A stretch of 64,000 bases of DNA from Bryobacteraceae bacterium. Lineage in GTDB: Bacteria > Acidobacteriota > Terriglobia > Bryobacterales > Bryobacteraceae. A model generated the notes under the pieces. The model did no database searches. It was not told the origin of the DNA and saw nothing but the letters and a program-made list of their open reading frames with translations. Position numbers and translations under genes: made by a program. The DNA lies in NCBI GenBank assembly GCA_026002855.1, contig BPGD01000001.1:744001-808000 (forward strand), in the 5' to 3' direction. Shown piece after piece: positions 3,863-47,773 of the stretch. The number at the start of each line of letters is the position of its first letter. Position 1 is the first letter of the stretch.

Positions 3863-4480
3863 ATGAGCTCACAGGCCCTGCCCGTGGCGCGCTGGCGCAT
3901 CCACCGCCGGCTCTATGACTGGATGATGCAATGGGCGCACAGCCCCCATAGCCAGGCCGCGCTGTTTCTGCTCGCCTTTGCCGAATCGAGCGTCTTCCCG
4001 ATCCCTCCCGACGCGCTCCTGATCGCGCTGGTGCTGGGCGCGCCCGGGCGCTGGCTGCTGCTGGCAGGCATCTGTACCGCAGGCAGCGTGCTCGGCGGCA
4101 TCGCCGGCTACGGCATCGGCCGCTTCCTGATGGACACGGTCGGCATGCGCGTCATCGAGTTCTATCACGCGCAGCAGTATTACCGGCAGGTGATGGCCTG
4201 GTACCAGCAGTATGATTTCTGGATTGTTTTTACTGCTGCCTTCACACCCATTCCGTACAAGGTATTCACCATCGCATCGGGCGCGTTCCAGATGAACGTG
4301 GCCGGTTTCACCGCTGTTTCTCTCGCCGGCCGCGGAGCGCGTTTTTTTCTCGTCGCCGGGCTGCTGCGCCTGTTCGGCGAGCCGGTGCGGCGTTTTATCG
4401 ACCGGTATTTTGACTGGCTCGCGCTGGCTTTCGTGATCCTGCTGGCGGGCGGATTCGTGCTGCTGCGCTACGCGCGCTGA
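3863..4480 (+). CDS. YqaA/DedA-family membrane protein (VTT/SNARE-associated domain)
   Basis: A 205-residue integral membrane protein starting at the ATG at 3863. Hydrophobic segments lie around residues 35-60, 65-90, 120-145 and 180-203. Family marks include the early re-entrant segment with ESSVFPIPPDALLIAL, the glycine-rich GGIAGYGIGRF and the conserved FTPIPYKVFTIASGAF motif of the YqaA branch. DedA proteins are linked to undecaprenyl-phosphate or phospholipid recycling and membrane homeostasis; that role is by family only. Its 3' end overlaps the convergent glycosyltransferase by 13 bp. Confidence 0.9.
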   Translation: MSSQALPVARWRIHRRLYDWMMQWAHSPHSQAALFLLAFAESSVFPIPPDALLIALVLGAPGRWLLLAGICTAGSVLGGIAGYGIGRFLMDTVGMRVIEFYHAQQYYRQVMAWYQQYDFWIVFTAAFTPIPYKVFTIASGAFQMNVAGFTAVSLAGRGARFFLVAGLLRLFGEPVRRFIDRYFDWLALAFVILLAGGFVLLRYAR

Positions 4481-17459: not shown

Positions 17460-20400
17460 CTAGAAGTGATAGCGGACGGTGAAGATCATGCTCCGGCCGC
17501 TCACGTTGGTGAAGCCAAGGTTCAGGAACGTGGTGTTGTTGGTGTTGTTGGACACGGTGTTGGCAGGCAGAGCGTTGAAGCTGCGGTAATTGAAGACGTT
17601 GAACACCTCCCACCGCAGCTCCAGGTTCTGCGATTCGCCAACGGTGCGGACGCGCTTGATCAGCGCCGCGTCGGTGTTGTAGGTGTTGCCCACGCGGCGG
17701 ATGTTGGCGCCGGCGCCGATGAGGCCCGAATTGTTCGGATACGCCACCCACATTGGGTTCGGAACCGTGGGGCTCGTGCCCGTGTTGGGCGTGCCGTTCG
17801 GGTTGTAGCCGGCCCGCTGGCTGAAGTTGATGGTCGAGATCTGACCTGGCAGGATGCCCAGCGGGTTGTTTCCGTTCAGGATGCTGTAGGGCCATCCCTG
17901 CTGCATTGTGGTGATGCCGGAGATCGACCAGCCATCGACCACGCGGCCCCACAGACCGCGGCCCTTGAAGAACTCGGGGAACTGGTAGACCCCGTTCAGG
18001 ACGAAGCGGTGCGGCGTGTCAAAGCCCGAACGCGCCTTGTCCAGCCGCATGTTGAACGGCACAGATGGCAGAGTGCGGTTGAGCTGCCCGCCGAGAATGT
18101 CATCGTTTTCGCTGATGAAAGTCGACCAGGTGTAGTTGGCCTCGAACTGGTAGCCCTTCGAGAAGCGCTTCTCGACGGTGAGCTGCATGGAGTGGAAGTT
18201 CGACATGCCGTAGCCGTCGCCCACGAGGATCGACCCCCGGGTGGGGTCAACGCGCCAGGCGGCCTGCCCGCTGACGGTGGTCGGCTTCATCCCGTAGCTC
18301 TGGACGACCGGTTCAAGCAGCGACGGATTGGCCTTGACGGCAGCGTCAAAGAAGCCAAGGTTGCGCTCCGCCTCGCGCACCAGCCGCACGCCGCGGGTCG
18401 CCACGTAGAACAGCTTGAAGGCGTAATCCGTGGTGAGCTGGCGCTCAAAGCCGAAAGTGACCTGCTGCGAATAGGGCTGCTGGATCCGCTTGTCTGGCGA
18501 GAAGTAGCGGTAGGGCAGCAGCTTCGGGTCGCCAGTATAGTCGCTCGGCTGCGGGGGCGCGGGACGCTTGGCCGGGTCGAAAATCTGCGAACCGTTCAGG
18601 TTGGCCAGCGTCACCGTCACGCCGCGCGGATAGTTCCGGGCGGTGTTTAGCAGGATGTTCTGGAACACCTGGTCGTAACTGATGGCGTAACCGCCGCGGA
18701 GCACGAACCGGCCGCCGCCGCTGATCCAGCCCCAGAGGCCATCGGTGGCTTTCGGACTCCAGGCAAAACCAACGCGAGGCGCCCAGTTGTTGATGTCCGC
18801 CTTGGCGTTGGAGAAGAACCCGAACGGCGCCGACGTGTATTCATAGCGGATGCCAAGGTTCAACATCAGGCTGTTGGTCAGGCGATAGTCGTCAGCGAAG
18901 AAGCCCTGGAACTCGTGCGTCTTGGCCGGGACCGAGCCGGTACCCGCATACTGGCTGAACTGCGCGTTGCGGTCGAAGAGGAAGTCCGCCAGGCTGGGGT
19001 AGCTGATGACGCCGCGGCTGGCTGGCGCGAAGAACGAATTCAGGCGGTACTGGAGGTAGTTAAAGCCGTACCGCAGGGTGTGCTTGGACTTCATGTGCGA
19101 CCAGTTGTTCGTGAGTTCATAAAGGTTGTCCGTGCGGTACTGCGGGTAGTTCGCATTGCCGATTGTTGGCAGCCCGGAGCCGGTGATGGAGAACTGCGCG
19201 GGCAGATTCTCGGGGAAGGTCGCCTCGCGGCGGGCAAAACTGAGCCGGGTCTCCATGACCAGGGTCGGACTCCAGACGCGGATGTGGTTGATAGTGGCGT
19301 TGTTGTTCACGACGACCGAGCCGATCTGGTTCACCGCCAGCGACGCGGGCGAGCCGGGATCGGTATTGTCGTCCTTGATCCAGCGCATCTGGAGATTGTC
19401 CTTGTCGGTCAGCCGCCAGTCATACCGCATCAGCCCGCGGTGGATGTCGCGCCCGTAAGAAAGGGCCTGCCCGGCGCCACGGCGGTACTGCTGAATGGGA
19501 ATCGCCAGGGTCGGACCGCCGGGGATCGCCACGTTCACGGTACCCACGGGCGTCGGGTCATTGGCCACCGGATACCACTGCTTCAGGAACGCCACCGTGC
19601 CAGGGGCGAAGCTGTTCTGATACTGAGTCAGCAGGTCCCACCCCTGCTGGGAAAACGTCGTCGTGACCGGGTTCGCCGTCGAGCGGAGACGATCCAGATC
19701 GTAGCCGCCGAAGAAGAACAGCTTGTTCTTGATGATCGGGCCGCCGATCGAACCCAGCACCTGGTTGCGCACAATCACGCCTCGTGCGCGCCGCATGGCA
19801 TCGTAGTCGCTGGCGCCGGCGGCTTTTTGCGCGTTGAACGTCCGCTGCTGACCTGTCGTGAATGCATCCCAGCCGTTGCCCAGCCAGCTCCAGCGGGCGA
19901 TGCCGTGGAATTCGTTCGTGCCGGACTTGGTCACCTGCATCACCACCGACCCGGAGTTCCGCCCATATTCAGCCGAGAACGTGTTGGTGATGATGCGGAA
20001 CTCGCCCAGGTATTCCGGCGCCGGCGTCTGCCGCGGGATCGACAGCGACTGGTCGTTGTTGTTGGCGCCGTCCAGCATGAAGTTGTTCGAGCGGGTGCGC
20101 GCGCCATTGACCACGAAGCCCGAGCCAGGCCGCCCACCGTTATTTCCGGTCACGCCCGGCTGAAGCAGCGCCAGACCTGTCAGCGTGTTCAGCCCAGGCA
20201 GTTCGAGGATCCGCCTGGATTCGACGCCGCGGCTGATCTGCGCTTTGGTGGCTTCGATCAGCGGCGCCTCTTCGGTAATGGTGATCACTTCCTGCGTGCC
20301 GCTGGGCTTCAGCGTTACATCAACGGCGCGCTCGACCGAGGCTTCCACCGTGAGCGGGCCGCGGATCACCTTCTCAAACCCCTTGGCTACGACCTCAAGC

Positions 20401-20642
20401 TGATACCGGCCAATGGGCAGCGAAGGAGCACGCCAGAAACCGGTGTCATCCGTCTTCAGTTCGCGGGTCAGGCCCTGGTCCATCGAACGGATGATGACCT
20501 CCGCTCCTGGAATCACCGCTCCGGAGGAGTCCGTCACCGTTCCGGCCAGGGATCCGTAAATCGTCTGTGCTGCCGCCGGGCTCACCAGCGATGCAACAGC
20601 TAGCAACGCCAGCGCCCATCGAAAGACAGGCTGGTGTTTCAT
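17460..20642 (-). CDS. Oar-like TonB-dependent receptor (giant, copy 1)
   Basis: 1060 residues from the ATG at 20642, with AGGAG placed 9 nt upstream; earlier Met codons lie at or before the ribosome site. The signal peptide is MKHQPVFRWALALLAVASLVSPAAA. A CarboxypepD_reg domain (~30-115: GSLAGTVTDSSGAVIPGAEVIIRS...GFWRAPSLPIGRYQLEVVAKGFEK) precedes a plug (~120-250: LELPGLNTLTGLALLQPGV, FVVNGARTRSNNFMLDGANNND, EYGRNSGSVVMQVTKSGTNEFHG) and a long beta-barrel ending in an aromatic residue (VRYHF), as expected for BAM-assembled proteins. The large barrel lacks a classical substrate signature. Such Oar-like proteins are highly expanded in Solibacter-type Acidobacteria; ligands are unknown. Confidence 0.93.
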   Translation of the reverse strand: MKHQPVFRWALALLAVASLVSPAAAQTIYGSLAGTVTDSSGAVIPGAEVIIRSMDQGLTRELKTDDTGFWRAPSLPIGRYQLEVVAKGFEKVIRGPLTVEASVERAVDVTLKPSGTQEVITITEEAPLIEATKAQISRGVESRRILELPGLNTLTGLALLQPGVTGNNGGRPGSGFVVNGARTRSNNFMLDGANNNDQSLSIPRQTPAPEYLGEFRIITNTFSAEYGRNSGSVVMQVTKSGTNEFHGIARWSWLGNGWDAFTTGQQRTFNAQKAAGASDYDAMRRARGVIVRNQVLGSIGGPIIKNKLFFFGGYDLDRLRSTANPVTTTFSQQGWDLLTQYQNSFAPGTVAFLKQWYPVANDPTPVGTVNVAIPGGPTLAIPIQQYRRGAGQALSYGRDIHRGLMRYDWRLTDKDNLQMRWIKDDNTDPGSPASLAVNQIGSVVVNNNATINHIRVWSPTLVMETRLSFARREATFPENLPAQFSITGSGLPTIGNANYPQYRTDNLYELTNNWSHMKSKHTLRYGFNYLQYRLNSFFAPASRGVISYPSLADFLFDRNAQFSQYAGTGSVPAKTHEFQGFFADDYRLTNSLMLNLGIRYEYTSAPFGFFSNAKADINNWAPRVGFAWSPKATDGLWGWISGGGRFVLRGGYAISYDQVFQNILLNTARNYPRGVTVTLANLNGSQIFDPAKRPAPPQPSDYTGDPKLLPYRYFSPDKRIQQPYSQQVTFGFERQLTTDYAFKLFYVATRGVRLVREAERNLGFFDAAVKANPSLLEPVVQSYGMKPTTVSGQAAWRVDPTRGSILVGDGYGMSNFHSMQLTVEKRFSKGYQFEANYTWSTFISENDDILGGQLNRTLPSVPFNMRLDKARSGFDTPHRFVLNGVYQFPEFFKGRGLWGRVVDGWSISGITTMQQGWPYSILNGNNPLGILPGQISTINFSQRAGYNPNGTPNTGTSPTVPNPMWVAYPNNSGLIGAGANIRRVGNTYNTDAALIKRVRTVGESQNLELRWEVFNVFNYRSFNALPANTVSNNTNNTTFLNLGFTNVSGRSMIFTVRYHF

Positions 20643-21022
20643 CGTGTCCATCTCCTGTGCAGAGTCTTGAAAGAGCCTCTGGTCTGGCGGTTGCGATCCT
20701 GGCCGGGCGCTCCGAGAGTCCTCCAAATTCACTCAACCGTGTCAGGGACTCCGGAACGATACGGCCGATCTAACCTCTCCAAACCCCTCACTGCTCAACC
20801 TATAACACATTTTAAACATGAAGAGAAGTGCAAACGACACGGATCCTCCACCTCCGAGTTGGAGACACTCTGCGGTCGCCCGAAGACATCCGTCGCGGCT
20901 TTACTGAAGGGGACTGGCCCGTCCGGCCCTCGTTCAGAGAAGCGATTGATTTTCAAACGAAAAGCGCCGGGCGCCCCGTTTGGGGGCGGCCCGGCGCTCT
21001 CAGGCCAGTTTTCCGTGGGAAA
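20643..21022. other. Intergenic region between giant receptors 1 and 2
   Basis: 380 bp. It contains the terminator of receptor 2 (20960-20998) and presumably the promoter of receptor 1. The AT-rich patch at 20800-20820 (minus strand TTTAAAATGTGTTATAGG) is the best place for a promoter, but no -35/-10 pair fits well. No gene is seen. Confidence 0.5.
20960..20998 (-). terminator. Intrinsic terminator of giant receptor 2
   Basis: Minus-strand hairpin of about 15 bp with one bulged G (20963-20977 paired with 20983-20998, loop of five), followed by TTTT at 20963-20960. It starts 25 bp after the stop at 21023. Confidence 0.85.
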
Positions 21023-24000
21023 CTACCAGAAGACCTTAAAGCCGATCTGGACCTGACGCGGATAACCGTTGCCGATCCACGCCTGGTGCGGGAAGATCGT
21101 GCCGAAGTTCGGGTCGTTGGGGTTCGTGTTGAAGTGGCTGTCGCGGCCGAAGAAGTAGTAGTTGGTCAGGTTGAACGCCTCGCCGCGGATCTGGGCCCGG
21201 AGACGCTCTGTAAACCGGATCGTCTTCGACAGCGCCAGATCCATATTAAAGAGTAGCTGCTTGCGGATCTGGCCGCTGCGGAATGGGTTCATGCGGCTGT
21301 TGCTGGGCGTGGATCCGCCGCCCGGGGTGAATGTCGGCACCATCAGCCAGGCGTACTGGCTGAAGTCGGTCGGCGAGCAACCCCGGGCAATGGAGAAGGG
21401 CTGAGGTACCACGCGCCCGTCATCAAACATGCGGAGCACGCACGGGTTCCATCCGACGATTTGGTGCCGCTTCCAGTCGACTTTGCCGTTCCAGTCTCCG
21501 CCAATGGTGCGCGGATCCCGAAGCATGATGGCATTGGCCGGCAGGTTGTTTGGCTCGCCAGAGCCCCATTGTGTGTAGGTGCTGATGGTCCAGCCCCCGA
21601 TAAGCGCGTCGGCCAGCCGGCCCATGCTGCCGCCGAATTTCTTGCCGCGGCCGATGGGAAGATCATAGACAGTGTTGAACTTGAAATAGTGGGGCCGGTC
21701 ATTGAAGTACAGCCCCTGCTGGGGCTTGTTCTCGAAGGGGTCCGCGTAGCCCCACCGCTCGACCATCTTGCTGAGCGTATAGTTCCACAGCAGCGTCAGG
21801 TCACGGCCGATACGATGGTTGTAATTGATCTGGAGCGAGTTATACCAGATCTTTGACGTGTTCAGGCCCTGCATGATCATGTCGCCGGAGAACTGCGGGA
21901 AGGGGCGGTTCAATTGATACCGGGTGAGGCGGTCGGCCGTAAAATGCGTTGTGCCGCGGAAAGCCTCGATGCCCTTGAACGGATTTGGAATGGTCTCATT
22001 GCAGTAAGCGGGACTGCCCCCCTCGAGCAGGTTGCACTGCTTTCTGAAGCTGAGCGGCGGAATGTTGAATGCGCGCTCGTCGTTGGCGCCTACCGTGCGG
22101 CTGCCGACGTAGGAGACGTCGATGGTTGAGTTCCCGGTCAACAGGTACTGGAAGCCAAACGAGAACTGGTGTACCCGCGGCGTCCAGAAGTTGGGATTGA
22201 ACCAGCTCGTGTCGCGCCCCAGGAACGTGTTGTAGCCACCCGTGGCGCCGGCCGGGAACTTGATGCCGCCGGGGTAGGGGTTGGTGAGCAGCGTGTTGGA
22301 AACAAGCGTGCGCCCGCCGTCCTCGCTATTGACCATAGGCGTGTTTTCACTGAAGCCGGCGAACTTCAGGAAATCGTTGTTCGGATTCATGAAATACAGG
22401 CCATACCCGCCGCGCACGACCAGCTTGCTGGCCAACTGATAGGCTGCGCCGATGCGCGGCTGCCAGTTGTTCAGGTCGCGCCTGGCTGCAATCCGCGGGT
22501 TCCCCCCGACACCTACGAACTCGAGTCCGCCGGTGAGGTTGGCCAGATTCGGATACAGGGCAAGCATCGAAGCCGGGATCTGCTTTGCAACCGGGCTTGG
22601 GGCGCTCGGGTTGAAGCCGCGATTCAGGCGATTCCACTTCTCATCCGGCGGCCCGTTGTAGTCCCAGCGCAGGCCCAGGTTCAGCGTCAGCCGGCGGGTC
22701 ACCTTCCAGTCGTCCTGGAAATAAGGCGCCGCGTACCACTGGCGGTTGAACGGATACAGCGGAATGTTGACAGACCCACCGACGCCGCCAATGAGGAACG
22801 AAGCATAGGAATCGCCTGCGGTTGGTTCGCTCTGGTTCCACAGCCGCTGCGTCCACTGGGTCTGGCCCTGGAAGTAGAGGATGTTGCCCGTATTCTGCTG
22901 GATGAAGTGAATGCGGCGCAGGTCGAGCCCCATCTTCATCGTGTGCCCGCGCCAGATTTTGGTCAGGTTCGACATCAGGTTGTAGTTGTTGGTGATGTTG
23001 ATCGACTGGTAACGGCCCAGCGAGCTGTAGCCGGGGAACTCCCAGCGGCCGAAGTATCGCGGCGTCGGCAACTGGTTGATGAGCGAGGCCGGCAGGCCCA
23101 GGCTGGTGAGATCAAAGCCTTCATTGGCGCGGCCGAAGCCTTTCTCAATAAAGCGGTTGTAGGAGCCGCGGACGTTGAGCACCGTCGTCGGCGTCGCCGT
23201 CCAGACCCAGTCGAGCACGTAGGCGTCGTTGATGCGCTGGAACGGTTGCTGGCCGTCGGTGCCGATCTTGTTGTCGAGGTTGTTCACCGCGCGGTCCTCG
23301 GTGCGGTCGTTCGAAGCGTGCCGGACGAAAGCGCGGTGGTTCTGCCCGAAATTCCAGTCAAACTTCAGGATCAGATTGTAGAACTTGTCCTTGGCTGCGT
23401 ACTGTGGATTCAGGTTATTCACGGTGGAATACCGCACCCCCGCAGTCTTGGCGTTCGGCAGCGGCATGTACTTGGTCACCGCGGCCGCCACCGGGCTGAT
23501 CAGCGATTTCGGGATGATGTTGCCCGGGAAGGGCTGCCTTTGCGGGTCGCCGCCGACCAGCGTATAGGCGTAGGGGTTGTAAATCGTGATGGGTCGGCCG
23601 TCAGCGGCGACGAGTTTGGAGAAATCGCCCTCGCGCATTTCCGGCTCAGGGTAAGAATTTTGCAGAAATTGCGGCCATTTCTCGCGGTAATTCTCGAAGC
23701 TTCCCAGGTAGAACAGTCGCACGTTGCCGTCCTTGCGCAGCAGTTTGGGCATGTAAAGCGGCCCTTCAAGCTGGAAGCCGTACTGGTCCAGCGTGTGGTC
23801 GGGCCGCGGCGCGCCCACGGCGTTATTCTGGTAGGTGTTGGCGTCGAGTGCCTTGCGGCGCATGAATTCCCAGCCGGTGGCGTGAAATTCGTTCGTGCCG
23901 GACTTGAGCACGACGTTGAAGATGCCGCCGCCGGTCTTGCCATACTGTGCGTCGTAGGAGTTCTGCTGCACCGAGAACTCCTGCACGGCATCGACGATGG

Positions 24001-24640
24001 GCACGTAGGCGATGTTGTTGCCGCCCGCCTGGCCGTTGTTCGGCGCCCCGTCCATCAGGAACTCATTGTTGGACTGGCGCCCGCCATTAACCGACCATTC
24101 GGCGATGGCGCCGTTGTCAAACGGCCGCTGCCAGATGGCCGCGCCGCGGAAAGTGACGCCGCTCATCATCGCGCCGAGCATGAACGGGTTGCGCGAGTTC
24201 AGCGGCATTTCCGCCACCTGCCGTTGCGTGACCACCGCCGCGCGGCTCGCCGTCTGCGTTTCGAGCACCGCCACTTCCGCAGTGACATTGACCGATTCAG
24301 TCACCATGCCGACCTCGAGCGTCACGTCCAGCGGAAAGATGCGGCCCACTTCCAGGACCACGTTCTCGCGATTGAACTGCTTGAACCCCTCTGCCTGCAC
24401 CGTCACCTTGTAGGTGCCGGGACGCAGAAACGGAATCGAGTAGGTGCCGGTAGAGTCTGTTGTTGCGGTCGAAGTTTCATTGGTGGCCGAGTTCACGGCC
24501 GTGACCTTGGCGTTCGGAACCACGCCGCCCGTCGGATCGAAAACACGCCCCGAAATCGTGGCGCGGAACTCCTGCGACATGGCCGCCAGGGCCAGAAGGC
24601 AGAGCGCGAGGCCTGTTCTGGCAATCGAGAGACGACTCAT
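21023..24640 (-). CDS. Oar-like TonB-dependent receptor (giant, copy 2)
   Basis: 1205 residues from the ATG at 24640, where a signal peptide starts (MSRLSIARTGLALCLLALAAMS). The CarboxypepD_reg domain is ATISGRVFDPTGGVVPNAKVTAVNSATNETSTATTDSTGTYSIPFLRPGTYKVTVQAEGFKQF. The plug contains VAEMPLNSRNPFMLGAMMSGV, WSVNGGRQSNNEFLMDGAPNNGQAGGNN and YGKTGGGIFNVVLKSGTNEFHATGWEFMRR. The barrel ends GFKVFW. It shares the layout of copies 1 and 3 but differs in most of the barrel, which suggests different ligands. A strong promoter lies about 100 bp upstream. Confidence 0.93.
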   Translation of the reverse strand: MSRLSIARTGLALCLLALAAMSQEFRATISGRVFDPTGGVVPNAKVTAVNSATNETSTATTDSTGTYSIPFLRPGTYKVTVQAEGFKQFNRENVVLEVGRIFPLDVTLEVGMVTESVNVTAEVAVLETQTASRAAVVTQRQVAEMPLNSRNPFMLGAMMSGVTFRGAAIWQRPFDNGAIAEWSVNGGRQSNNEFLMDGAPNNGQAGGNNIAYVPIVDAVQEFSVQQNSYDAQYGKTGGGIFNVVLKSGTNEFHATGWEFMRRKALDANTYQNNAVGAPRPDHTLDQYGFQLEGPLYMPKLLRKDGNVRLFYLGSFENYREKWPQFLQNSYPEPEMREGDFSKLVAADGRPITIYNPYAYTLVGGDPQRQPFPGNIIPKSLISPVAAAVTKYMPLPNAKTAGVRYSTVNNLNPQYAAKDKFYNLILKFDWNFGQNHRAFVRHASNDRTEDRAVNNLDNKIGTDGQQPFQRINDAYVLDWVWTATPTTVLNVRGSYNRFIEKGFGRANEGFDLTSLGLPASLINQLPTPRYFGRWEFPGYSSLGRYQSINITNNYNLMSNLTKIWRGHTMKMGLDLRRIHFIQQNTGNILYFQGQTQWTQRLWNQSEPTAGDSYASFLIGGVGGSVNIPLYPFNRQWYAAPYFQDDWKVTRRLTLNLGLRWDYNGPPDEKWNRLNRGFNPSAPSPVAKQIPASMLALYPNLANLTGGLEFVGVGGNPRIAARRDLNNWQPRIGAAYQLASKLVVRGGYGLYFMNPNNDFLKFAGFSENTPMVNSEDGGRTLVSNTLLTNPYPGGIKFPAGATGGYNTFLGRDTSWFNPNFWTPRVHQFSFGFQYLLTGNSTIDVSYVGSRTVGANDERAFNIPPLSFRKQCNLLEGGSPAYCNETIPNPFKGIEAFRGTTHFTADRLTRYQLNRPFPQFSGDMIMQGLNTSKIWYNSLQINYNHRIGRDLTLLWNYTLSKMVERWGYADPFENKPQQGLYFNDRPHYFKFNTVYDLPIGRGKKFGGSMGRLADALIGGWTISTYTQWGSGEPNNLPANAIMLRDPRTIGGDWNGKVDWKRHQIVGWNPCVLRMFDDGRVVPQPFSIARGCSPTDFSQYAWLMVPTFTPGGGSTPSNSRMNPFRSGQIRKQLLFNMDLALSKTIRFTERLRAQIRGEAFNLTNYYFFGRDSHFNTNPNDPNFGTIFPHQAWIGNGYPRQVQIGFKVFW

Positions 24641-24737
24641 TCGGTTCAACCCCCTGTCTCTGTGTGATGATCGAATTCCCTGAGCGCAGCTGAACAACGC
24701 CTGCGCGGGCGCCGCCCCAGCTGGCGAGGTTGGCAGG

Positions 24738-24766
24738 ATTCTATCAGAAGGCCCGGCCCGATTCAA
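24738..24766 (-). promoter_or_regulatory. Sigma-70-type promoter for giant receptor 2
   Basis: On the minus strand TTGAAT (24766-24761), a 17-bp spacer and TAGAAT (24743-24738) match the consensus at four and five of six positions. The ATG is 97 nt downstream of the -10 element. Confidence 0.6.
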
Positions 24767-24902
24767 TCGGAAAATTGCTGAGCGTTTACACCGCCTCCGT
24801 CCAGGCTTTCAGCCCGAAATAGAAATGCCCGTGGGGCAGCAGCCAGAGCGCGAAGAGGCGCCGAATCCCTCGCGCCGGCAGGAGTCTCCGGTTTGACATG
24901 CT

Positions 24903-24943
24903 CAAACAAAGGGCCGCATCCCCCTTGCCGGGGGACGCGGCCC
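24903..24943 (-). terminator. Intrinsic terminator of giant receptor 3
   Basis: Minus-strand hairpin with arms 24930-24943 and 24911-24924 pairing at 13 of 14 positions, a 5-nt loop, and TTTGTTTG after it. It begins 26 bp after the stop at 24969. Confidence 0.85.
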
Positions 24944-24968
24944 TGGTGTCGTTTTGGCTGTCCGGAAA

Positions 24969-27900
24969 TCAGAAGTTGATCTTCGCGCCGAGTTGAATCT
25001 TGCGCGAATCGCTGACCAGCGAATCGCGGATGCGGCCGAAAGTGGTCAAACTGCGGGTGGCCGTGGGGAAGCCAAACACCGGATGGTTGAAGACGTTGGT
25101 CATGTCGGCGCGGAGCTCGAAGTTCCAGCGCTCGGTGATCATCGTGCGCTTCAGCACCGTCATATCCACGCCCCAGCCTCCGGGGCCGCGGAAGAAGTTG
25201 CGCCCCGTGTTGCCGATCCAGCCAGGCGCCGGATTGCTGAACTGCGCCCGCTGCTCGGCGGTGAAGTACCACTTCATCCCGTCGATGTCCTGCACCTTGC
25301 CCATCGTGGGCTTGCAGCCGTTGCAGTCGGCGAAGCTCTGCACGACGTTGTTGAACGTGTAGAAGCCGGAATAGACCGACATCGGCCTTCCGCTCTGGAA
25401 CGTGCCCATGCCGGCCACCTGCCAGCCACCGATCAGCCGCTGGGTCAGCCCGGAAGCCGCCGAACCGAACCGCTTCCCGCGGCCAAACGGCAGTTCCCAG
25501 ATCCAGTAGGTCTGCACAACGTGCTTGCGGTCGAAATCGCTGGGGGCGTAGTTCAGCCTGCGGTTGTAGATGTCGAACGGCGTGCCGCCGGCCGATTGCG
25601 CGTTGGCCGAGGCGACGACCGTGAAGGCAGGGTCGTAAGATCTCGTGTCGAGCGACTTGGCCAGCGTGTAGCTGATCTGATACTCCAGCCCGCCGCTCAT
25701 CCGCTTGAGAAATTGCACCTGGCCGGCGTGGTAAGTGGAGAAGTCGTTCGAGTCGATCACGTTCAGCCCATTGGCGAACTGCGGGAACGAGAGGAAGAAG
25801 AATGGGCTGAGCCCGGCCGCCTCGGCCTGCCCGCGGCCGCCGACGACGCGGCGGCTCAGGTCCTGGGCGATGAAGGCCCAGTTATTGTTGCTCAGGTCCA
25901 CGGAATAAATGCGGCGCAGCGCCTGCGAGCCGGTCTCGGTGGAGCGCTTGCGCGAGTCCACCGCCATGAGCTGGTTGATAAGCTGGCTCTCGCCCCCGGA
26001 ACTGACCGTGGCGAGTGCATTGTAAAAGCCGTTGTTGCGCCACTCAACCTGGTTCGCGTTGTAGGCGCCGAAAAGGTTGTAGGCGCGGCGGCCGATATAG
26101 TTGGCCTCGATGACCGCATTGCGGAAAACCTCCCGCTGCACCGAGAAGCTCCACTGGTGCGTGGTCGGTGTCCTGAAGTTCGGGTCGACCACCGTGATCG
26201 TCCGGTTGGAGAACGGCGCCGGCTGGGCCAGCGACTCGGGCGAGACGGCCGGGGGCTTCAGTTCCGGCAATCCTGCCAGACGGCCGCCGCTCTGGCCATA
26301 GCTGGCGTCGTTGAGGCCGATGACGATGCCGGGCAGGTTCTGGAATACCTGCGAGCTCAGCACAAACGTGTTGATGCGGTCGTAGGCGATGCGGTAGTTG
26401 GAGCGGATGGATGTCTTCCCATTGCCGAACGGATCCCAGGCAAAGCCGATGGACGGCGCCCAGTTGTTAACGTCGTCGCTGTACAGATTGCCCGGCACCC
26501 ATTTCAGCGTGTTGGTCGGCGCCGCACCGGCCACGGCCACCTGGTCGGGCCGCCGGATCCGGCCGTCGGGATTGCGCGGCGACTGCTTGGCCTCGAGGCG
26601 CAGCCCGAGATCAACGGTCAGGTTGCGGTTCACCTTCCACGTGTCCTGGATATAGAAGTCGTATTCGTTGAATTTCGCCAGGAAATTGTAAAGCCCGGTG
26701 ACGTAGCTGTCTTTTGTCGACGGGAAGCCGCGGTTCGTGTTGCCGACGCGGCCCAGCATGAAGTTGATGTGCGTCTCCAGCGTGATGCGGTCGAACTGCT
26801 GGTTGATGTCGGCGGGCAGGCCGAAGGCGGCGGCATCGACGGCGTTCACGACGCGCGAAAAATCGGCCGACTGCGTGGCGTTGTAGCCGCCGATGGAGCC
26901 GCGAACGTCGCGGTGACGGCCCAGGCGGAAGTTGATGCCAAACTTCAGGTTGTGCGCGCCTCGCATCCAGGCGAAGTTGTCGACGAACTGCCACGTCTTC
27001 AGCTTGCGCGCGTTGCCGAAGCTGTAGACGATCGGGTTGGCCACGGGCGTCGCCAGGTTCACCTTGGTGAGGTCGGCGGTGGGAATGTTGAAGTCGAAGG
27101 CGAACTGGTTCAGGCCGAAGACGAATTCGTTGGTCATGGAAGGCGCGGGCATGGTGCGCCAGTTGAAGGCGAGGTTCTTCGGGTCGCGCTTGGTGTTGAC
27201 GATGCACGGCGCGCCGGGCCAGACGGGCGAGCCGCCGTTGACGCGGTCGCAGTTGGTGTCCTGGCGGCCGAAGCTGACGCGCGCGAAGAACGTGTTCTTG
27301 TTGTTGATGATATAGTCGCCGCGCAGCGTCACGTCATGCTGTTTTTCCATTTGCAGCGCGGTGAACGTGTAGGCGGCGGTGTTCAGTCCATCGCCCAGGG
27401 TAAAGTTGTTCGGCAGCGGCGCGGCCTGCGCAATCGCCTTGGTCCGCGCGTCCCAGCCCAGCCGCTGCGGGTCCATCGTGATCACGTTGTATGTGCCGAT
27501 GGACACGCCGGGAAGAACGTTGCCCTGCTCATCCACGGCGGCGCCGGCAACGCCGGCCGGCAGGTTGCGGCCCGCTTTGTTGTATCGCCAGATGCCTTCG
27601 CGGGCCTCTTTCGTGTAAACGGTCGAGTTGACCACGGCCGACTCGCGCGTGCGCAGAATCTGTAGGTTGCCGTAATAAAACAGCTTGTTCTTGATCACCG
27701 GTCCGCCGATGCCGATGCCGGGGATGTTCTGCTGGTACTGCCGCTTGCCCACGTTGTTGATGTTGTTCTCCCACTCGTTCGCGCTCAGGCGCGGCGTGCG
27801 ATAGAACCACCAGGCCGTCCCATGAATCTCGTTGGTGCCGCTCTTGGTGACCATCGCCACCTGGCCGCCCGAATTGCGGCCGTATTCGGCAGTGGCGTTT

Positions 27901-28571
27901 CCCGTGAGCACGCGGAACTCGCTCAGCACGTCCGGGTTCATGCGGATGGGCGCAAAATTTGAGCCGCCGGCGCTGGTCTCGTTAGCGTCGATGCCGTCAA
28001 TAGTGAAGTTCCAGGCGCGGTCCCGCGCCCCGTTGACGTGCACGCCGCCGCCCGTGTTGGCGCCGCTCACCACGCCGGGCTGGCGGACCACCAGATCCAG
28101 CGGGTTGCGCCCGCGCGTGCCGACGATCGGCAGGTCGCGGATCACCTGCTCGGTGAACAGGTTGCCGAAGTTGCCCGAAGTGGAAGTCTGGACGATCTCG
28201 GCCGAGCCGCTCACCTCCACGACTTCCGTCACCGTGCCCACTTCCAGCGTCACGTTGACGGTGGCCGGCTGTCCAATGGTGACCGGATTCCGGCGCGACG
28301 TAAACTTGCGGAACCCAGGCGCTTCCACCATGACCGTGTACGATCCACTGGGCACAGCCTCAAAGAAATAGGCGCCGTTTTCGGCTGTCTTTGTCTCAAA
28401 TGTGGCGTTGGTGCCTTCGTTGATGAGTTTCACCACGGCGCCGGGCACGCTGGCGCCGCTCGGATCCGACACGACGCCGATCACCCGGCTGGTGGTCCCC
28501 TGCCCCCACACGGCCGCCGCTCCCAGCGCGAGCAGACCCAGACACTGAACGAACCTGGAAAGCATTCGCAT
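24969..28571 (-). CDS. Oar-like TonB-dependent receptor (giant, copy 3)
   Basis: 1200 residues from the ATG at 28571; the ATG at 28565 is equally possible. The signal peptide is MRMLSRFVQCLGLLALGAAAVWG. The CarboxypepD_reg domain is SRVIGVVSDPSGASVPGAVVKLINEGTNATFETKTAENGAYFFEAVPSGSYTVMVEAPGFRKF. The plug has IRDLPIVGTRGRNPLDLVVRQPGVV, VHVNGARDRAWNFTIDGIDANETSAGGSNF and EYGRNSGGQVAMVTKSGTNEIHGTAWWFYRT. The barrel ends LGAKINF. The plug motif EYGRNSG...KSGTNE is nearly the same as in copy 1. Ligand unknown. No Shine-Dalgarno sequence is apparent. Confidence 0.93.
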   Translation of the reverse strand: MRMLSRFVQCLGLLALGAAAVWGQGTTSRVIGVVSDPSGASVPGAVVKLINEGTNATFETKTAENGAYFFEAVPSGSYTVMVEAPGFRKFTSRRNPVTIGQPATVNVTLEVGTVTEVVEVSGSAEIVQTSTSGNFGNLFTEQVIRDLPIVGTRGRNPLDLVVRQPGVVSGANTGGGVHVNGARDRAWNFTIDGIDANETSAGGSNFAPIRMNPDVLSEFRVLTGNATAEYGRNSGGQVAMVTKSGTNEIHGTAWWFYRTPRLSANEWENNINNVGKRQYQQNIPGIGIGGPVIKNKLFYYGNLQILRTRESAVVNSTVYTKEAREGIWRYNKAGRNLPAGVAGAAVDEQGNVLPGVSIGTYNVITMDPQRLGWDARTKAIAQAAPLPNNFTLGDGLNTAAYTFTALQMEKQHDVTLRGDYIINNKNTFFARVSFGRQDTNCDRVNGGSPVWPGAPCIVNTKRDPKNLAFNWRTMPAPSMTNEFVFGLNQFAFDFNIPTADLTKVNLATPVANPIVYSFGNARKLKTWQFVDNFAWMRGAHNLKFGINFRLGRHRDVRGSIGGYNATQSADFSRVVNAVDAAAFGLPADINQQFDRITLETHINFMLGRVGNTNRGFPSTKDSYVTGLYNFLAKFNEYDFYIQDTWKVNRNLTVDLGLRLEAKQSPRNPDGRIRRPDQVAVAGAAPTNTLKWVPGNLYSDDVNNWAPSIGFAWDPFGNGKTSIRSNYRIAYDRINTFVLSSQVFQNLPGIVIGLNDASYGQSGGRLAGLPELKPPAVSPESLAQPAPFSNRTITVVDPNFRTPTTHQWSFSVQREVFRNAVIEANYIGRRAYNLFGAYNANQVEWRNNGFYNALATVSSGGESQLINQLMAVDSRKRSTETGSQALRRIYSVDLSNNNWAFIAQDLSRRVVGGRGQAEAAGLSPFFFLSFPQFANGLNVIDSNDFSTYHAGQVQFLKRMSGGLEYQISYTLAKSLDTRSYDPAFTVVASANAQSAGGTPFDIYNRRLNYAPSDFDRKHVVQTYWIWELPFGRGKRFGSAASGLTQRLIGGWQVAGMGTFQSGRPMSVYSGFYTFNNVVQSFADCNGCKPTMGKVQDIDGMKWYFTAEQRAQFSNPAPGWIGNTGRNFFRGPGGWGVDMTVLKRTMITERWNFELRADMTNVFNHPVFGFPTATRSLTTFGRIRDSLVSDSRKIQLGAKINF

Positions 28572-43057: not shown

Positions 43058-44005
43058 CTAGCCGGTCCGCTGCGGCTCCCCGGCGGCGCCGTCCTGCGAC
43101 GCCGCAATCAGCCGCCGCACTGCGTCCAGTTGCAGCAACGGCGCCAGCGCCGCCAGCGCCGCGGCCGGGTGCCACACAAACCAGGATGGCCACAGCAGCC
43201 GGGACGGGACCAGACCGGTGTTTTCCAGTCCGACACAGAAGCTGCCCGCGCAGGTCAACCCCGCCGCCCAAAGATAGGCCCGCCAGGGACGCGCCAGCAG
43301 CCCGCCCCGCAGCGGCGCCGCCGCCCGCTCGAGCAGAACGCTCAGCACCAGCAGCCACCCCAGCAGCGGATCCGTCAGCCAGCCGATCCACCACAGGGCC
43401 GTCCGGCGAACACCGGGCGCGCCCAGCCAGAAGCCGAACGAATGGAGGGCATAGGTGAAGAAACACGCCGCGCCGAGCAGCGCCACCCAGTCCTTCCCCG
43501 AAGGCCGCCGCAACAGGCCGAGCCGCGCGTGAACCCGGAGGGCCATCGTCAGCCCGGCAGCCAGCAGCAGCAGATACAGCGTGCCCCCCAGGACGCGCCC
43601 GAACTCGGCCAGCACCGGTTGCCACGAAGCGGTCCCGGAGACGGCCAGCGGGTTCACTGCGATCGGCACGGCGAGCCAGTGACGGAAAAACATGCTGACG
43701 GCGTGGACGCCCCCGGCGGCTGACAGCAGCAGCCAGGCCGATCTGAGCGGCTCCCCCGGCCCGTACCAACGCATGACCCAGGCCGCGGCCGCCATCTCCA
43801 CCAGGGCATACACCGTCAGCAGCGGGCCGCCGACTTCCCTGAACCAGAAATCCAGCCCGCGCGCGCTCCCGCCGGAGAGCCATGCGGCCGCGGTCGCCAG
43901 CCCCACGGCCACGAAGGCAGCGCACGAACCGGCCACCGCCAGCGCCAGCCCCCAAACCACCGCCAGCGGCTCCGCCCAGGGACGCCTCAGAGCCAGCGCC
44001 CTCAT
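43058..44005 (-). CDS. Multi-pass membrane protein of unknown function, in sigma/anti-sigma operon
   Basis: 315 residues from the ATG at 44005, with GGGGGGAGG upstream. About eight or nine hydrophobic segments cover the whole length, for example residues 13-35, 50-70, 85-100 and 120-150, with short loops. I recognise no family. The arginine-rich loops face one side. It overlaps the stop region of the anti-sigma factor gene by 4 bp, so it is probably coupled to the sigma/anti-sigma pair and may be a membrane signal partner; that role is inferred. Confidence 0.75.
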   Translation of the reverse strand: MRALALRRPWAEPLAVVWGLALAVAGSCAAFVAVGLATAAAWLSGGSARGLDFWFREVGGPLLTVYALVEMAAAAWVMRWYGPGEPLRSAWLLLSAAGGVHAVSMFFRHWLAVPIAVNPLAVSGTASWQPVLAEFGRVLGGTLYLLLLAAGLTMALRVHARLGLLRRPSGKDWVALLGAACFFTYALHSFGFWLGAPGVRRTALWWIGWLTDPLLGWLLVLSVLLERAAAPLRGGLLARPWRAYLWAAGLTCAGSFCVGLENTGLVPSRLLWPSWFVWHPAAALAALAPLLQLDAVRRLIAASQDGAAGEPQRTG

Positions 44006-44457
44006 GCCGCCCTCCCCCCGGCCTGCTTCCGCCCGGAGGCCATTTCGATGGCCCGGTTTCCCAGCAGTGTCTCCATCAGCACGACCTTTGCCGGACGAGC
44101 CGCTTCCGCGGCAGCGGCGTGGCCCAACAGCAGCAACGCCAGAGACTCGCCGGGCAGCGGCCCCGCCCCACGGGCGGCCGACTCTCCTGCAAGCCGCTGC
44201 CATCCGGCCTCAAAGAGCTTTTTCACTGCCTCCAAATGGACATTCAGCGCCCGGCGCGCCAGTTCCAGCTCTTCGGCCAGACGCTCCACCCGCTGCTGGC
44301 AGAGACGGCACTCGGCCACATGGGCCGCCACATGGCGCGATTCGGCCTCGCCGAGTTCCCCGTCCCGCCAGGCGCACAATCTCCAGTCCTCCGGATGCCG
44401 CCGCGCGCGCCGCGTCACCGCCCGGATCCAGCCGGCAAGCATGCCATGCAGGCTCAT
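44002..44457 (-). CDS. Zinc-binding anti-sigma factor-like protein
   Basis: 151 residues. Near the N-terminus the motif H-x3-H-x3-C-x2-C (H42, H46, C50, C53 in ESRHVAAHVAECRLCQQRVE) is the ZAS/zf-HC2 signature of anti-sigma factors. The rest is helical with a moderately hydrophobic patch around LALLLLGHAAAAE that is too short to be a sure membrane anchor. It overlaps the ECF sigma gene by 4 bp, the usual arrangement for a sigma and its inhibitor. It probably holds the sigma factor inactive until a signal arrives. Confidence 0.82.
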   Translation of the reverse strand: MSLHGMLAGWIRAVTRRARRHPEDWRLCAWRDGELGEAESRHVAAHVAECRLCQQRVERLAEELELARRALNVHLEAVKKLFEAGWQRLAGESAARGAGPLPGESLALLLLGHAAAAEAARPAKVVLMETLLGNRAIEMASGRKQAGGRAA

Positions 44458-44996
44458 CGCAGCGCCTCCAGTTTATGCAGGGCGCGCGACAAAAGACAGG
44501 CCACCGATCCGGGCCGCAGCCTGAGGATCTCCGCAATCTCCAGATAACGATACCCGAGAACCCGTAGTTGCACGCACTGAAACTCCCGCGGCGACAGCAG
44601 CGCGCGAATTCGCGCCTCCAGCTCGCCCGCCCCGCCTTCCGCCGATGACGCGCCCGCCAGCGAGCCGGCCGCCGCCAGGCGTTCCTGCCGGGCGCTGCGT
44701 CGCGCGGCATCGCGAAGGAAATTCAACACCACCCGGGCCAGCCAGGCGCGCACGGAGCGGATGTGAACGCCCGTCAGCAACGCCTCCTGATACCGCAGGA
44801 AGGCCTCCTGAACCGCGTCCTCGGCCAGGCCCTCATCACGGCACTCGGCCAGCGCCAGCCGGAACAGCAGCCGGCCGTGGCTCTCGTAGGCCGATTCGGC
44901 GGCGCGGCGGACGTCGGGCGCCCCCGCCCGGCCGCCCTCGGCGGCCGCATCCATCGCCTGCCAGCAGATCGAACCTTCCTCCGGGAGATCGGGCAT
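44454..44996 (-). CDS. ECF-type RNA polymerase sigma factor
   Basis: 180 residues from the ATG at 44996, with GGGAG upstream; the longer open frame upstream has no conserved content. Region 2 is AAESAYESHGRLLFRLALAECRDEGLAEDAVQEAFLRYQEAL, and region 4 is LSPREFQCVQLRVLGYRYLEIAEILRLRPGSVACLLSRALHKLEAL, with the helix-turn-helix. The linker is Ala/Gly-rich. There is no region 3, as expected for ECF factors. It is followed by an anti-sigma gene and a membrane protein, and is divergent from the pilin-like genes, which are candidate targets. Confidence 0.9.
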   Translation of the reverse strand: MPDLPEEGSICWQAMDAAAEGGRAGAPDVRRAAESAYESHGRLLFRLALAECRDEGLAEDAVQEAFLRYQEALLTGVHIRSVRAWLARVVLNFLRDAARRSARQERLAAAGSLAGASSAEGGAGELEARIRALLSPREFQCVQLRVLGYRYLEIAEILRLRPGSVACLLSRALHKLEALR

Positions 44997-45155
44997 GGGG
45001 CGACTCCCATTGTCCCGGACACCGGCGGCAAATGCAATCCGCGCCAGCCTCGGGTGTTTGCCTGACTTCCGCCAAAGAACGCACTTAGCCGTCAAGCATG
45101 ACAGTTTGTTCGTCGTCTTATGGGCGGCATGACGATAAGAGGGGAAAGTGCACCC

Positions 45156-45611
45156 ATGCGACGACGGGCGAGAGGCAACGCGCTGATCGAAACGGCGCTG
45201 GTAATGTTGCCGCTGTTTGCGCTGGTGTTTGCCATTGTCGATCACGGGCTCGTGGTGTTCTTGCAGTCCACTTTCCAGCACGCGGTGCGGGAAGGAGTCC
45301 GGTATGCGGTGACCTACCAGACGCAGCCGGGCCTGGGCCACGATGACAGCATCCGCGCCGTGGTCGTCCGCAACTCCATGGGCTTCCTCCGCGGCCGGGA
45401 AAGCTCGATCAAGATCCGGTACTTCGACCCCATCACGTTCCAGGAGGTGCCGGACAACGTGCCCGGCAACATTGTGGAAGTCTCGATCGAGGGATACGAG
45501 CATCGGTGGCTGGCGGCGCTCTGGCGGGCCCCGGGAGCCATCCAGTTGAACGCCCGCTCGTCGGACCGGATGGAGGGCCTGCCGACGGGCGCTTCGCCGC
45601 CGCCGCGGTAA
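45156..45611 (+). CDS. TadE-like pseudopilin protein, copy 1
   Basis: 151 residues from the ATG at 45156, preceded by GAGGGGA; ATG codons at 45129 and 45120 are alternatives. A short basic N-terminus (MRRRARG) leads into NALIETALVMLPLFALVFAIVDHGLVVFL, the TadE-type helix with an E near the start (ALIET). The rest is a small globular domain (FQHAVREGVRYAVTYQ...). TadE-like proteins are minor pseudopilins of the Tad/Flp type IVb pilus, cleaved by a prepilin peptidase. No Tad ATPase or secretin lies nearby. Confidence 0.85.
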   Translation: MRRRARGNALIETALVMLPLFALVFAIVDHGLVVFLQSTFQHAVREGVRYAVTYQTQPGLGHDDSIRAVVVRNSMGFLRGRESSIKIRYFDPITFQEVPDNVPGNIVEVSIEGYEHRWLAALWRAPGAIQLNARSSDRMEGLPTGASPPPR

Positions 45612-45636
45612 GGCCAGCAACACAGGGAGGAGAGCC

Positions 45637-46260
45637 ATGAGGAACCGGCACCGGAGCGGCAGACAGTCGGGCAACTCGCTTATCGAGTTCGCCCTCGGTT
45701 TCGCGCTTCTGATGCCCCTCTACGTCTGGATGCTCATCTACGGACTCGACCTGAAGCACCTGATGCAGGTCGGCCAGGTGAGCCGCGACGCGGGCCACAT
45801 GTATGCGCGCGGAGTGGACTTTTCGCTTCCAGGCAACCAGGACGTGCTGGTACGCCTCGCCGCCGGCATGCGCATGACGAGAACGGGCGGAGCGGGCGTG
45901 GTGATTCTAACTAGAGTTCTCAAGGTCGGCGCTCAGGATTGCACCGACGGCGGCATCGCGGTGAGCTCATGCAGCAATCTGGGGCAGGCGGTGATCACCC
46001 AGCGCATTGTCGTCGGCAACGCCAGCCTCCGGCCCAGCAAGATCGGCACGCCGCCGGCGTCGCTCCTGCTGGCCGACGGCTCCATTGCCCCTGCCGATTA
46101 TCTGACCAAGAGCGCCGCGCGGACGGTCAATTTCAACTCGATCCTCAACCTCGCCGACGGCGAAATGGCTTATGTGGCGGAAGCCTGGTTCGAGTCTCCG
46201 GTCAAGGATTTTCCAACAAACAACAGCAGGGGGCCTCTCTATGCACGCACGATCTTCTAG
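45637..46260 (+). CDS. TadE-like pseudopilin protein, copy 2
   Basis: 207 residues. It begins RNRHRSGRQSGNSLIEFALGFALLMPLYVWMLIYGLDL, again a basic stretch, SLIEFAL and a single hydrophobic helix. The mature part (~150 residues) contains VSRDAGHMYARGVDF, typical of TadE/TadG proteins. A pair of cysteines (DCTDGG, SSCSN) may form a disulphide. It starts 25 bp after copy 1 with GGGAGGAGAG, and its 3' end overlaps the VWA gene by 20 bp, so the three genes are cotranscribed. Confidence 0.83.
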   Translation: MRNRHRSGRQSGNSLIEFALGFALLMPLYVWMLIYGLDLKHLMQVGQVSRDAGHMYARGVDFSLPGNQDVLVRLAAGMRMTRTGGAGVVILTRVLKVGAQDCTDGGIAVSSCSNLGQAVITQRIVVGNASLRPSKIGTPPASLLLADGSIAPADYLTKSAARTVNFNSILNLADGEMAYVAEAWFESPVKDFPTNNSRGPLYARTIF

Positions 46261-47773
46261 GAACGAGCGGGGCATCACGATCATTCTGCTGGCCTTCGGC
46301 CTGGCCATGATCCTTCTGATGGCCGGCCTCGCGGTGGATGCCTCTTACCTGTACACGGTGCGGGCCAAGCTTTCGATGGCCTGCGACGCGGCAGCGCTGG
46401 CGGCCGCCCGCTCGCTCAACGTGGGTCTCACGATGGCCGAGCAGGAAAGTGCGGCCCGGGCGCGCGCCCAGGCGTTTTTCGACGCCAACTTCCCCAACGG
46501 CGCCCTGAACACGCGCAACCGGACCTCTTCGGTGGCCGTCGAGGAGACGGCCCTGCGCACGCGCTCGGTCACCGTCTCGGCCTCGGTCGTCGCACCCACG
46601 TATTTCATGCGGATCGTCGGCATCCCTTCCATCCCCGTGTCGGCCCTCGGCAAGGCCAGCCGCCGCGACGTCAACATGATGATGGTGCTCGACCGCTCCG
46701 GCAGCATGCAGAGTGCCGGCGCCTGCGAGCCGATGAAATCGGCCGCGCGGAGTTTCGTCTCGCGCTTCGCCGAGGGCCGCGACCGCCTCGGCATGATTAC
46801 CTACAGCACCTCCTGGTATTACGCCTACCCGCTCACCAAGAATTTCAAGACCCAGTCGCCCACGCTCGACTCCGTCATCAGCACCATCACCTGCACCGGC
46901 GGCACCTCGACGGCGATGGCCATCAGCGAGGCATACAACCAGCTTGCCGCCCTGAACGAACCCGGTGCGCTGAACATCATCATGCTGTTCACCGACGGCA
47001 TCCCGACCGGTCTGACTGCCCAGTTCCCGGTAAAGACCGTCTCCGACTCCCGCTACGGCAACCAGGAGAGCCGCACCGTGGACGGCATCTATCACAACTA
47101 TCCGAACGTGGGAACCATCTATAACATGCTTCCCAGCGGCTGCCGGGATACCGCCAACAAGACGTATCCCCAGGCCGGCTGGGCGCCGGCAGACCGCATC
47201 GGCGTGCTCGTTTCCAGCGGCGATGGCGTGGCCGCCACCGGCCAGACCTACGGCATCATCAAGCCTTACGCTCCCACCATGACTTCGGCCGACAGGTCTC
47301 TGGACGGCCCCACCGGCACCATGACCAGCGGCGCCGGCTGCGCGTTCGGATCCGGCACCACCGATTTCAATCTCATGCGCTACGCCCGGCGCGATATCGC
47401 TTACGTGCCGAACTTCGACCTCTACAACAACCGCATGGACTGCTGCTACCGGACCGTGCCGAAATTCACCAGCGGCCCGTTCGCAGGCAGGATCCGTCCC
47501 GACAGGCCGGATTCGGTCGGCGCAGCCTCCACCAACGCCACCGACAACGCCGCCAAACGCATCCGCCAGAGCACGGCCAACCCCACCCTCTTCTATGTCA
47601 TCGGGCTCGGCAGCGTCGATTCCGTGCTGCTGAAGCGGATCGCCAACGACCCCTCCAGCCCCACGTACACGCGCGACGAGCCCACCGGCCTGTACGTCTA
47701 CGCGCCGGACAAGACGCAACTGAACCAGGCCTTCGCCCGCATCGCCTCGGAGATCCTGCGCCTGGCCCAGTAA
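46241..47773 (+). CDS. TadG-like protein with VWA domain
   Basis: 510 residues from the ATG at 46241. A basic N-terminus precedes ERGITIILLAFGLAMILLMAGLAVDASYLYTVRAKLSMACDAAALAAARSLN, the TadG-like helix. A von Willebrand factor A domain starts near residue 142 with the metal-dependent adhesion site DRSGSM (D151, S153, S155), then TGGTST and LFTDG. The C-terminus (FYVIGLGSVDSVLLKRIANDP...LNQAFARIASEILRL) closes the VWA fold, with a ~170-residue insertion rich in Tyr/Gly and paired cysteines between. It may sit at a pilus tip or on the envelope and bind ligand; inferred from VWA-containing TadG proteins. Confidence 0.88.
   Translation: MHARSSRNERGITIILLAFGLAMILLMAGLAVDASYLYTVRAKLSMACDAAALAAARSLNVGLTMAEQESAARARAQAFFDANFPNGALNTRNRTSSVAVEETALRTRSVTVSASVVAPTYFMRIVGIPSIPVSALGKASRRDVNMMMVLDRSGSMQSAGACEPMKSAARSFVSRFAEGRDRLGMITYSTSWYYAYPLTKNFKTQSPTLDSVISTITCTGGTSTAMAISEAYNQLAALNEPGALNIIMLFTDGIPTGLTAQFPVKTVSDSRYGNQESRTVDGIYHNYPNVGTIYNMLPSGCRDTANKTYPQAGWAPADRIGVLVSSGDGVAATGQTYGIIKPYAPTMTSADRSLDGPTGTMTSGAGCAFGSGTTDFNLMRYARRDIAYVPNFDLYNNRMDCCYRTVPKFTSGPFAGRIRPDRPDSVGAASTNATDNAAKRIRQSTANPTLFYVIGLGSVDSVLLKRIANDPSSPTYTRDEPTGLYVYAPDKTQLNQAFARIASEILRLAQ

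Follow-up and report, generated by a model that had tools for sequence, protein, structure and literature searches.

We examined a 64-kb stretch of the chromosome of a Bryobacteraceae bacterium (GenBank assembly GCA_026002855.1, contig BPGD01000001.1), which spans positions 744001-808000 of a one-contig 4.44 Mb genome and is called the window below. Within it, genes for an extracytoplasmic function (ECF) sigma factor, an anti-sigma factor and a membrane protein that we call mem (together, the trio) lie back to back with three genes for Tad-like minor pilins, tadE1-tadE2-tadG (the cassette). A preliminary description of the window had reported these six genes, and their coordinates, strands and overlaps (4 bp each for sigma/anti-sigma and anti-sigma/mem) were re-derived from the window sequence. 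In window coordinates, the features are as follows.

43058..44005 (-): mem, an 8-helix membrane protein of 315 aa that belongs to no known family and is proposed to serve the anti-sigma factor as membrane receptor/anchor
44002..44457 (-): soluble zinc-type anti-sigma factor, 151 aa; HxxxCxxC and a C-terminal module; zf-HC2 below cut-off
44454..44996 (-): ECF sigma factor, 180 aa; PF04542, PF08281 and TIGR02937 above cut-off
45091..45098 (+): predicted -35 element GTCAAGCA, the counterpart of GTAAAGAA in the gaps of relatives; spacing constant at 15
45114..45117 (+): predicted -10 element CGTC, ending 38 bp upstream of the tadE1 start; leave-one-out site score 19.9 bits
45156..45611 (+): tadE1, a TadE-like minor pilin of 151 aa; PF07811
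45637..46260 (+): tadE2, a second TadE-like minor pilin of 207 aa; between tadE1 and tadG in most loci
46241..47773 (+): tadG, 510 aa, with a pilin-like N-terminus and a VWA domain with a complete metal site; proposed tip adhesin

We think that the six genes probably form an ECF sigma circuit dedicated to a pilus-tip cassette. The whole case is built on sequence, namely on gene content, recurrence, a promoter motif and gene fusions.

To follow the layout in relatives, we searched other genomes for mem, which was found in 33 of 200 family genomes with a single sequence and in 34 of 237 with a profile. In wider samples it was rarer (17 of 399 genomes for the class; 5 of 297 for the phylum, two of them weak). 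Thirty-two loci from 31 family genomes and the window itself gave 33 family loci (here, L and G numbers denote loci and genomes); two fragmentary mem hits in G122 were left out. Contig ends cut L059, L060, L063, L065 and L234, and L061 ends after tadE1; in L053 the anti-sigma gene is interrupted by unknown bases. The trio lies back to back with tadE1 in 15 of the 33 family loci and, because of this recurrence, the layout is more than chance. The loci are related and the counts are not independent, with the close groups L061/L064/L068 and L075/L077/L078/L082 representing few events; on the mem tree, the back-to-back label changes four times. Three further loci (L057, L058 and L074) have other TadE/TadG-like genes nearby, which in L057 and L058 are below Pfam cut-offs. 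The six-gene observation is thus real and recurrent. The regulation goes beyond what the preliminary description had claimed, whilst a fixed gene order falls short.

The cassette itself is far more widespread, with tadE1 relatives in 148 and tadG in 143 of 200 family genomes. In the window's own genus, G126 and G144 have no trio gene although the cassette occupies the same site, and G099 retains the sigma gene with no anti-sigma or mem. On a tree of 67 tadG sequences, the trio label needs eight changes, at least seven of them forced. The trio is therefore a rarer, optional add-on to the cassette, yet one that is tied to pilins. The expectation that the six genes would keep together was borne out by the 15 back-to-back loci, but not by G126, G144 and most genomes with tadE1; an unconserved gene order, which had been named as grounds for refutation, was accordingly found in part, in that the trio is optional.

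All 15 gaps between sigma and tadE1 hold the motif GTAAAGAA-N15-CGTC, directed toward tadE1, with at most two mismatches and a constant spacing. There is at most one mismatch in 12 of the 15, and there are two in the window, L054 and L076; the window site reads GTCAAGCA-N15-CGTC (45091-45117). For comparison, 56 of 60 cassette loci gave a tadE1 start. Only four of these 56 match within two mismatches, and the remaining 52 resemble random pieces. The four are L148 (which has an adjoining sigma gene), L149 (same genus, trio gone), L192 (trio elsewhere in the genome) and L203 (its own sigma and anti-sigma). With L148 set aside for its adjoining sigma, the motif is present in 15 of 15 gaps versus 3 of 55 cassettes without an adjoining sigma-bearing trio (Fisher 1e-12, for a motif chosen on the 15). 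ECF sigma factors usually, although not obligatorily, regulate themselves from their own promoter. No such site was found toward sigma in any of the 15 gaps, where the best score was 11.0 bits. The divergent gap, suggested earlier as a place for a shared promoter, thus has a predicted promoter on the tadE1 side, but nothing comparable faces sigma. By eye, a candidate second conserved element close to TAACTAAAG can be seen toward sigma in the gaps of L056, L070, L072, L075, L077, L078, L082 and L084. We infer with good confidence a promoter link from sigma to the cassette, in which sigma itself would read the motif; the proposal that the cassette is under its own sigma factor is thus favoured by the conserved promoter motif.

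We next scored sites with a matrix made from the 15 motifs, using a threshold of 19 bits over 561,460 bases of mem loci (including L235, which has no full mem gene and is not among the 42 mem loci counted below). Leave-one-out scores were at least 15 in 14 of the 15 training sites (L054, 8.2). Twenty-six sites reached the threshold: 13 training sites and 13 held-out sites in the 28 loci outside the matrix. By target, six of the held-out sites precede Tad-like genes (two TadG-like in L057; a TadE-like and a TadG-like in L058; tadE in L231 and L232), two precede type IV minor pilins (FimT-like in L214; PilW-like in L234), four precede beta-barrel proteins (L230, L231, L232 and L233; assigned by Pfam for L231 and by profile for the others) and one precedes a response regulator (L066). 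The reversed sequence of the same loci gave one site. Relative to the density in control loci, the 13 held-out sites correspond to p 3e-5; by locus, 9 of 28 held-out versus 4 of 60 control loci gave p 0.003. Across whole genomes, exact motif matches did not define a regulon, as per-genome counts resemble the control pattern. In G027, G115 and G120, the sole exact match in the genome is the sigma/tadE1 gap. In trio-bearing genomes of other families, exact sites also occur apart from the trio: upstream of a TadE-like pair in L305, of a TadG-like gene in L314 and of a gene for an exported-looking protein in L307; others fall inside genes. The motif pattern is at odds with a sigma factor that regulates unrelated genes only, which had been offered as a ground for refutation.

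The association with pilins also extends beyond the family and beyond Tad. Eight mem loci come from other families (L214, L215, L228-L232 and L234), and five of the eight have pilin genes, of two pilus types. In L214 the trio is back to back with four type IV minor-pilin-like genes; in L229 sigma, anti-sigma, mem and four pilin-like genes are all on one strand; in L234 mem is convergent with PilX- and PilW-like genes; and in L231 and L232 tadE and tadG lie downstream. L215 and L230 have beta-barrel genes, and L228 has neither pilins nor beta-barrels. The Pfam model N_methyl is above cut-off in three of three genes scanned in L214 and in the one scanned in L234; it is below cut-off in L229, where PilX_N is above. 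The names FimT, PilV and PilW are presumptive and were assigned by us from N-termini and the order of the genes.

The sigma factor scores above the Pfam/NCBIfam cut-offs with PF04542 (39.2 bits), PF08281 (33.6 bits) and TIGR02937 (50.6 bits). Its length of ~180 aa and its having sigma-70 regions 2 and 4 only place it in the ECF group, as does the adjoining anti-sigma gene with its 4-bp overlap; the anti-sigma profile matches in most trio loci. The anti-sigma factor had been called ZAS-type (a zinc-binding anti-sigma). Its zinc motif, HVAECRLC, agrees with this, and HxxxCxxC is present in 29 of 38 anti-sigma profile hits, but the Pfam zf-HC2 score (17.0 bits) stays under the curated cut-off of 22.2. 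Its zinc part has weak similarity to the NCBIfam models of ChrR and RsrA. No transmembrane stretch was found in the window anti-sigma, so that it is like ChrR/RsrA-type ZAS factors in being soluble with HxxxCxxC. It differs from them in its C-terminal module, which is another one and is also found on a response regulator beside mem. L148 (G099; 4079-4483) retains sigma and the target promoter without anti-sigma and mem, and its sigma is possibly always active. An apparent sigma/anti-sigma fusion in L070 was an artefact, as the reading runs through unknown bases.

Two natural rearrangements relate the anti-sigma to mem. In L083 the anti-sigma is fused to the N-terminus of mem; the fusion matches positions 18-131 of the 186-position anti-sigma profile and is without the C-terminal module. 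In L062 and L063 the module alone (profile 114-181) is carried by a REC-LuxR regulator adjoining mem, and no sigma gene was found in either locus. The regulator genes (L062 8366-9370; L063 1064-2065) occupy the usual place of sigma and anti-sigma. Because the module is absent from the fusion and present on the regulator beside mem, it may be what docks the anti-sigma onto mem. We infer, with moderate confidence, that mem would be the membrane receptor of the anti-sigma. The earlier idea that the membrane protein could pass the signal gains from the fusion and the shared C-terminal module.

The mem protein had been described as an unrecognised membrane protein of 8-9 helices. Its AlphaFold2 model has eight long helices (predicted local distance difference test, pLDDT, 92.3; predicted template modelling score, pTM, 0.90), and the window protein has no Pfam, NCBIfam or PDB-sequence match, in agreement with that description. 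None of 31 aligned members, with a mean column identity of 31%, matches any membrane family (Pfam/NCBIfam, E 0.01); the sole match is the zinc finger of the L083 fusion. We assigned loops from the helices of the predicted model. Inner loops are the better conserved and have 0.14-0.25 lysine/arginine per residue, versus 0.01-0.08 for outer loops, which suggests an N-in topology. The L083 fusion likewise places the mem N-terminus in the cytoplasm, since the anti-sigma is attached there. By fold, Foldseek gave nothing below E 0.001 in PDB or viral models. A seven-transmembrane/G-protein-coupled receptor (GPCR)-like fold reached a best Z-score of 10.8, where helical models can reach 13. Among the families listed, the GPCR-like matches at Z ~10 are within the helical background.

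On the pilin side, tadE1 scores 43.1 bits with PF07811 (cut-off 22.9). The second of the two reported TadE-like pseudopilins, tadE2, has no Pfam match by itself and is TadE-like by N-terminus and position only. TadG is above cut-off with PF13400 (Tad) and PF00092 (VWA), and the residues of its metal-ion-dependent adhesion site (D151, S153, S155, T222 and D252) are invariant in 39 of 39 aligned TadG sequences, so the VWA metal site is complete, as had been reported. For the TadG model (pLDDT 90.4), the top Foldseek match is the tip minor pilin PilB of Streptococcus sanguinis (7b7p, E 6e-11), and the model is also near the VWA domain of the Mfa5 pilus tip. Both TadG and PilB are pilins with a VWA domain, but the TM-scores are only 0.35/0.42, the identity is 13% and PilB belongs to a Gram-positive type IVa pilus. 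Minor-pilin (pilus-tip) cassettes of the TadE-TadE-TadG(VWA) type are widespread, and the three pilins would form a tip.

The genome also encodes machinery for such a pilus. All hits above cut-off to T2SSE, the Tad ATPase family, are outside the window. The report that no Tad core genes are in the window thus stands for the ATPase, other Tad parts having been scanned for in some window genes. One core, at ~1.18-1.19 Mb, has a prepilin peptidase, two platform proteins, an ATPase, a TadZ-like ATPase, a secretin, RcpC and two Flp-like pilins; a second, at ~4.01 Mb, has platform proteins, an ATPase, a TadZ-like protein, a secretin and RcpC, with no peptidase or Flp seen within the 16 kb fetched. 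What we take to be Flp pilins were named from a GQDLIEYA stretch. With two further TadG-TadE-TadE sets, of which one is close to the first core and the other isolated at 3.68 Mb, the genome has three minor-pilin sets including the window cassette. Of the two earlier proposals, the one that the cassette supplies minor pilins to a pilus whose genes lie elsewhere is supported by the two cores, the Flp-like pilins and the closeness of TadG to a tip pilin.

We propose the following model. A signal at the inner membrane would be perceived by mem, which would hold or release the soluble anti-sigma through its C-terminal module. Freed sigma would direct RNA polymerase to the GTAAAGAA-N15-CGTC promoter (window 45091-45117), from which tadE1-tadE2-tadG would be transcribed. 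The three minor pilins would then form an adhesive tip, with the VWA domain of TadG outermost, on Tad pili whose machinery is encoded at other places in the chromosome. More tentatively, and with doubts outweighing confidence, mem may be the founder of a new class of minor-pilin receptors. In that role it would sense tip pilins, free or assembled, within the inner membrane, and a portable C-terminal module would let it control the anti-sigma docked on it or, in some genomes, a response regulator docked likewise, as a swappable inventory switch for Tad and type IVa tips.

Several observations weigh against a dedicated circuit. The window site has two mismatches, and spacings of 10 and 12 in the same gap also give two, so that the case for the window promoter leans on the relatives. 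The 60 control loci (457,717 bases) hold four sites, although two of these, in L148 and L192, are understandable. In L074 and L229 there are pilins without a site, whilst L058 and L234 have sites without a sigma gene in the stretch; L055, L059 and L060 likewise show no sigma gene in the stretch. No confirmed pilin is seen nearby in 19 of the 42 mem loci, several of which are on short contigs. Most cassettes are without the trio, and few of the 60 tadE1 loci (mostly one per genus) have an adjoining sigma, so the trio is not needed for a working cassette. L073, L079 and L080 have the trio without pilins beside an HU-like gene, and a different target may exist there.

In a different reading, which we consider unlikely, though less so than the others below, the trio would be a general envelope-stress or redox ECF system that had come to lie next to surface-protein genes, with pilins one of several targets and mem sensing the state of the membrane rather than pili. 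According to passages of PMC8999054, the signals to which soluble ZAS anti-sigmas respond are usually cytoplasmic or oxidative; of the 13 held-out sites, four are upstream of genes for beta-barrel proteins and one is upstream of a response regulator gene; and 14 of the 33 family loci are without Tad genes by profile (L060 gave only a weak tadE2-profile reading, which was not counted). Against this, each genome has few exact motif matches, and their overall frequency is that of the background, so no large regulon is apparent. In the window's own genome a looser pattern has seven matches; of the five inspected, four are inside genes and the gap site is the only intergenic one.

It is highly improbable that the neighbours are unrelated and merely divergent, with the motif reflecting an intergenic region conserved by descent. 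Many of the loci are indeed related and the two close groups noted above count as few events, but an identical motif and spacing precede type IV pilins and beta-barrel genes in other families, sites are found away from the trio (the TadE pair in L305, the TadG-like gene in L314) and the layout changes four times on the tree. Somewhat less remote, but still poorly favoured, is a self-standing surface adhesin complex in place of a pilus tip. The window has no Tad ATPase gene and VWA domains also occur in non-pilus proteins; yet the N-termini are pilin-like, the genome has two Tad cores and Flp-like pilins and, by structure, TadG best matches a minor pilin of a pilus.

Related systems share parts of this arrangement. 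The nearest analogy for its logic is FimS-AlgR of Pseudomonas, where, as the relevant part of PMC5979040 describes, a multi-helix membrane protein without a periplasmic sensor domain is proposed to keep track of the minor-pilin level and to regulate the fimU-pilVWXY1E operon accordingly. By its description there, however, FimS-AlgR is a sensor-kinase/response-regulator pair and FimS has four transmembrane domains. For the parts, SigX-CfrX-CmpX of Pseudomonas aeruginosa comes closest; in this system a soluble putative anti-sigma is proposed to be in complex with a membrane protein (passages of PMC8999054); as described there, CmpX is an ion channel, unlike mem, which has no known family. For the cassette, the gene set corresponds to the Kil-type Tip complex of three minor pilins, a complex that primes pili, as far as genes alone tell. 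In the sections of PMC12075869 on Kil, such sets serve as exchangeable tips: one Myxococcus genome has four paralogous three-gene minor-pilin clusters, the third pilin is large with an extra domain, and TadEFG are proposed as customisable tips. Differences are that the extra domain of KilN4 is reportedly without a structural homologue (same sections), whereas window TadG has a VWA domain, and that a text search of PMC12075869 finds no 'sigma', whereas the window cassette has its own ECF circuit. No account of an ECF sigma for Tad or minor-pilin cassettes was found in the open-licence papers searched; a text match to 'TadE' in PMC13340314 is an author's surname in the portion matched. The circuit thus consists of known parts in an arrangement not found described, plus one protein family new to the databases searched.

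Pilus tips determine what cells stick to, and some bacteria hold several tip cassettes. If the model is correct, a small sigma circuit that switches one cassette, and that is seen with two pilus types, would give a handle on tip choice, and ECF signalling would be extended by a docking module and by a family of membrane proteins not yet described. The promoter would be a simple reporter for finding the signal.

Three minor observations concern the surroundings. In the window, three large consecutive genes (17460-28565) were taken as Oar-like outer-membrane beta-barrel members for profile building. L056 has a second TadG-TadE-TadE set (8989-10908) on the other side of the trio. Finally, the tadG of L221 (DYJN01000041.1) is 76% identical to that of the window, and the Arcobacter sp. 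label of this record looks wrong.

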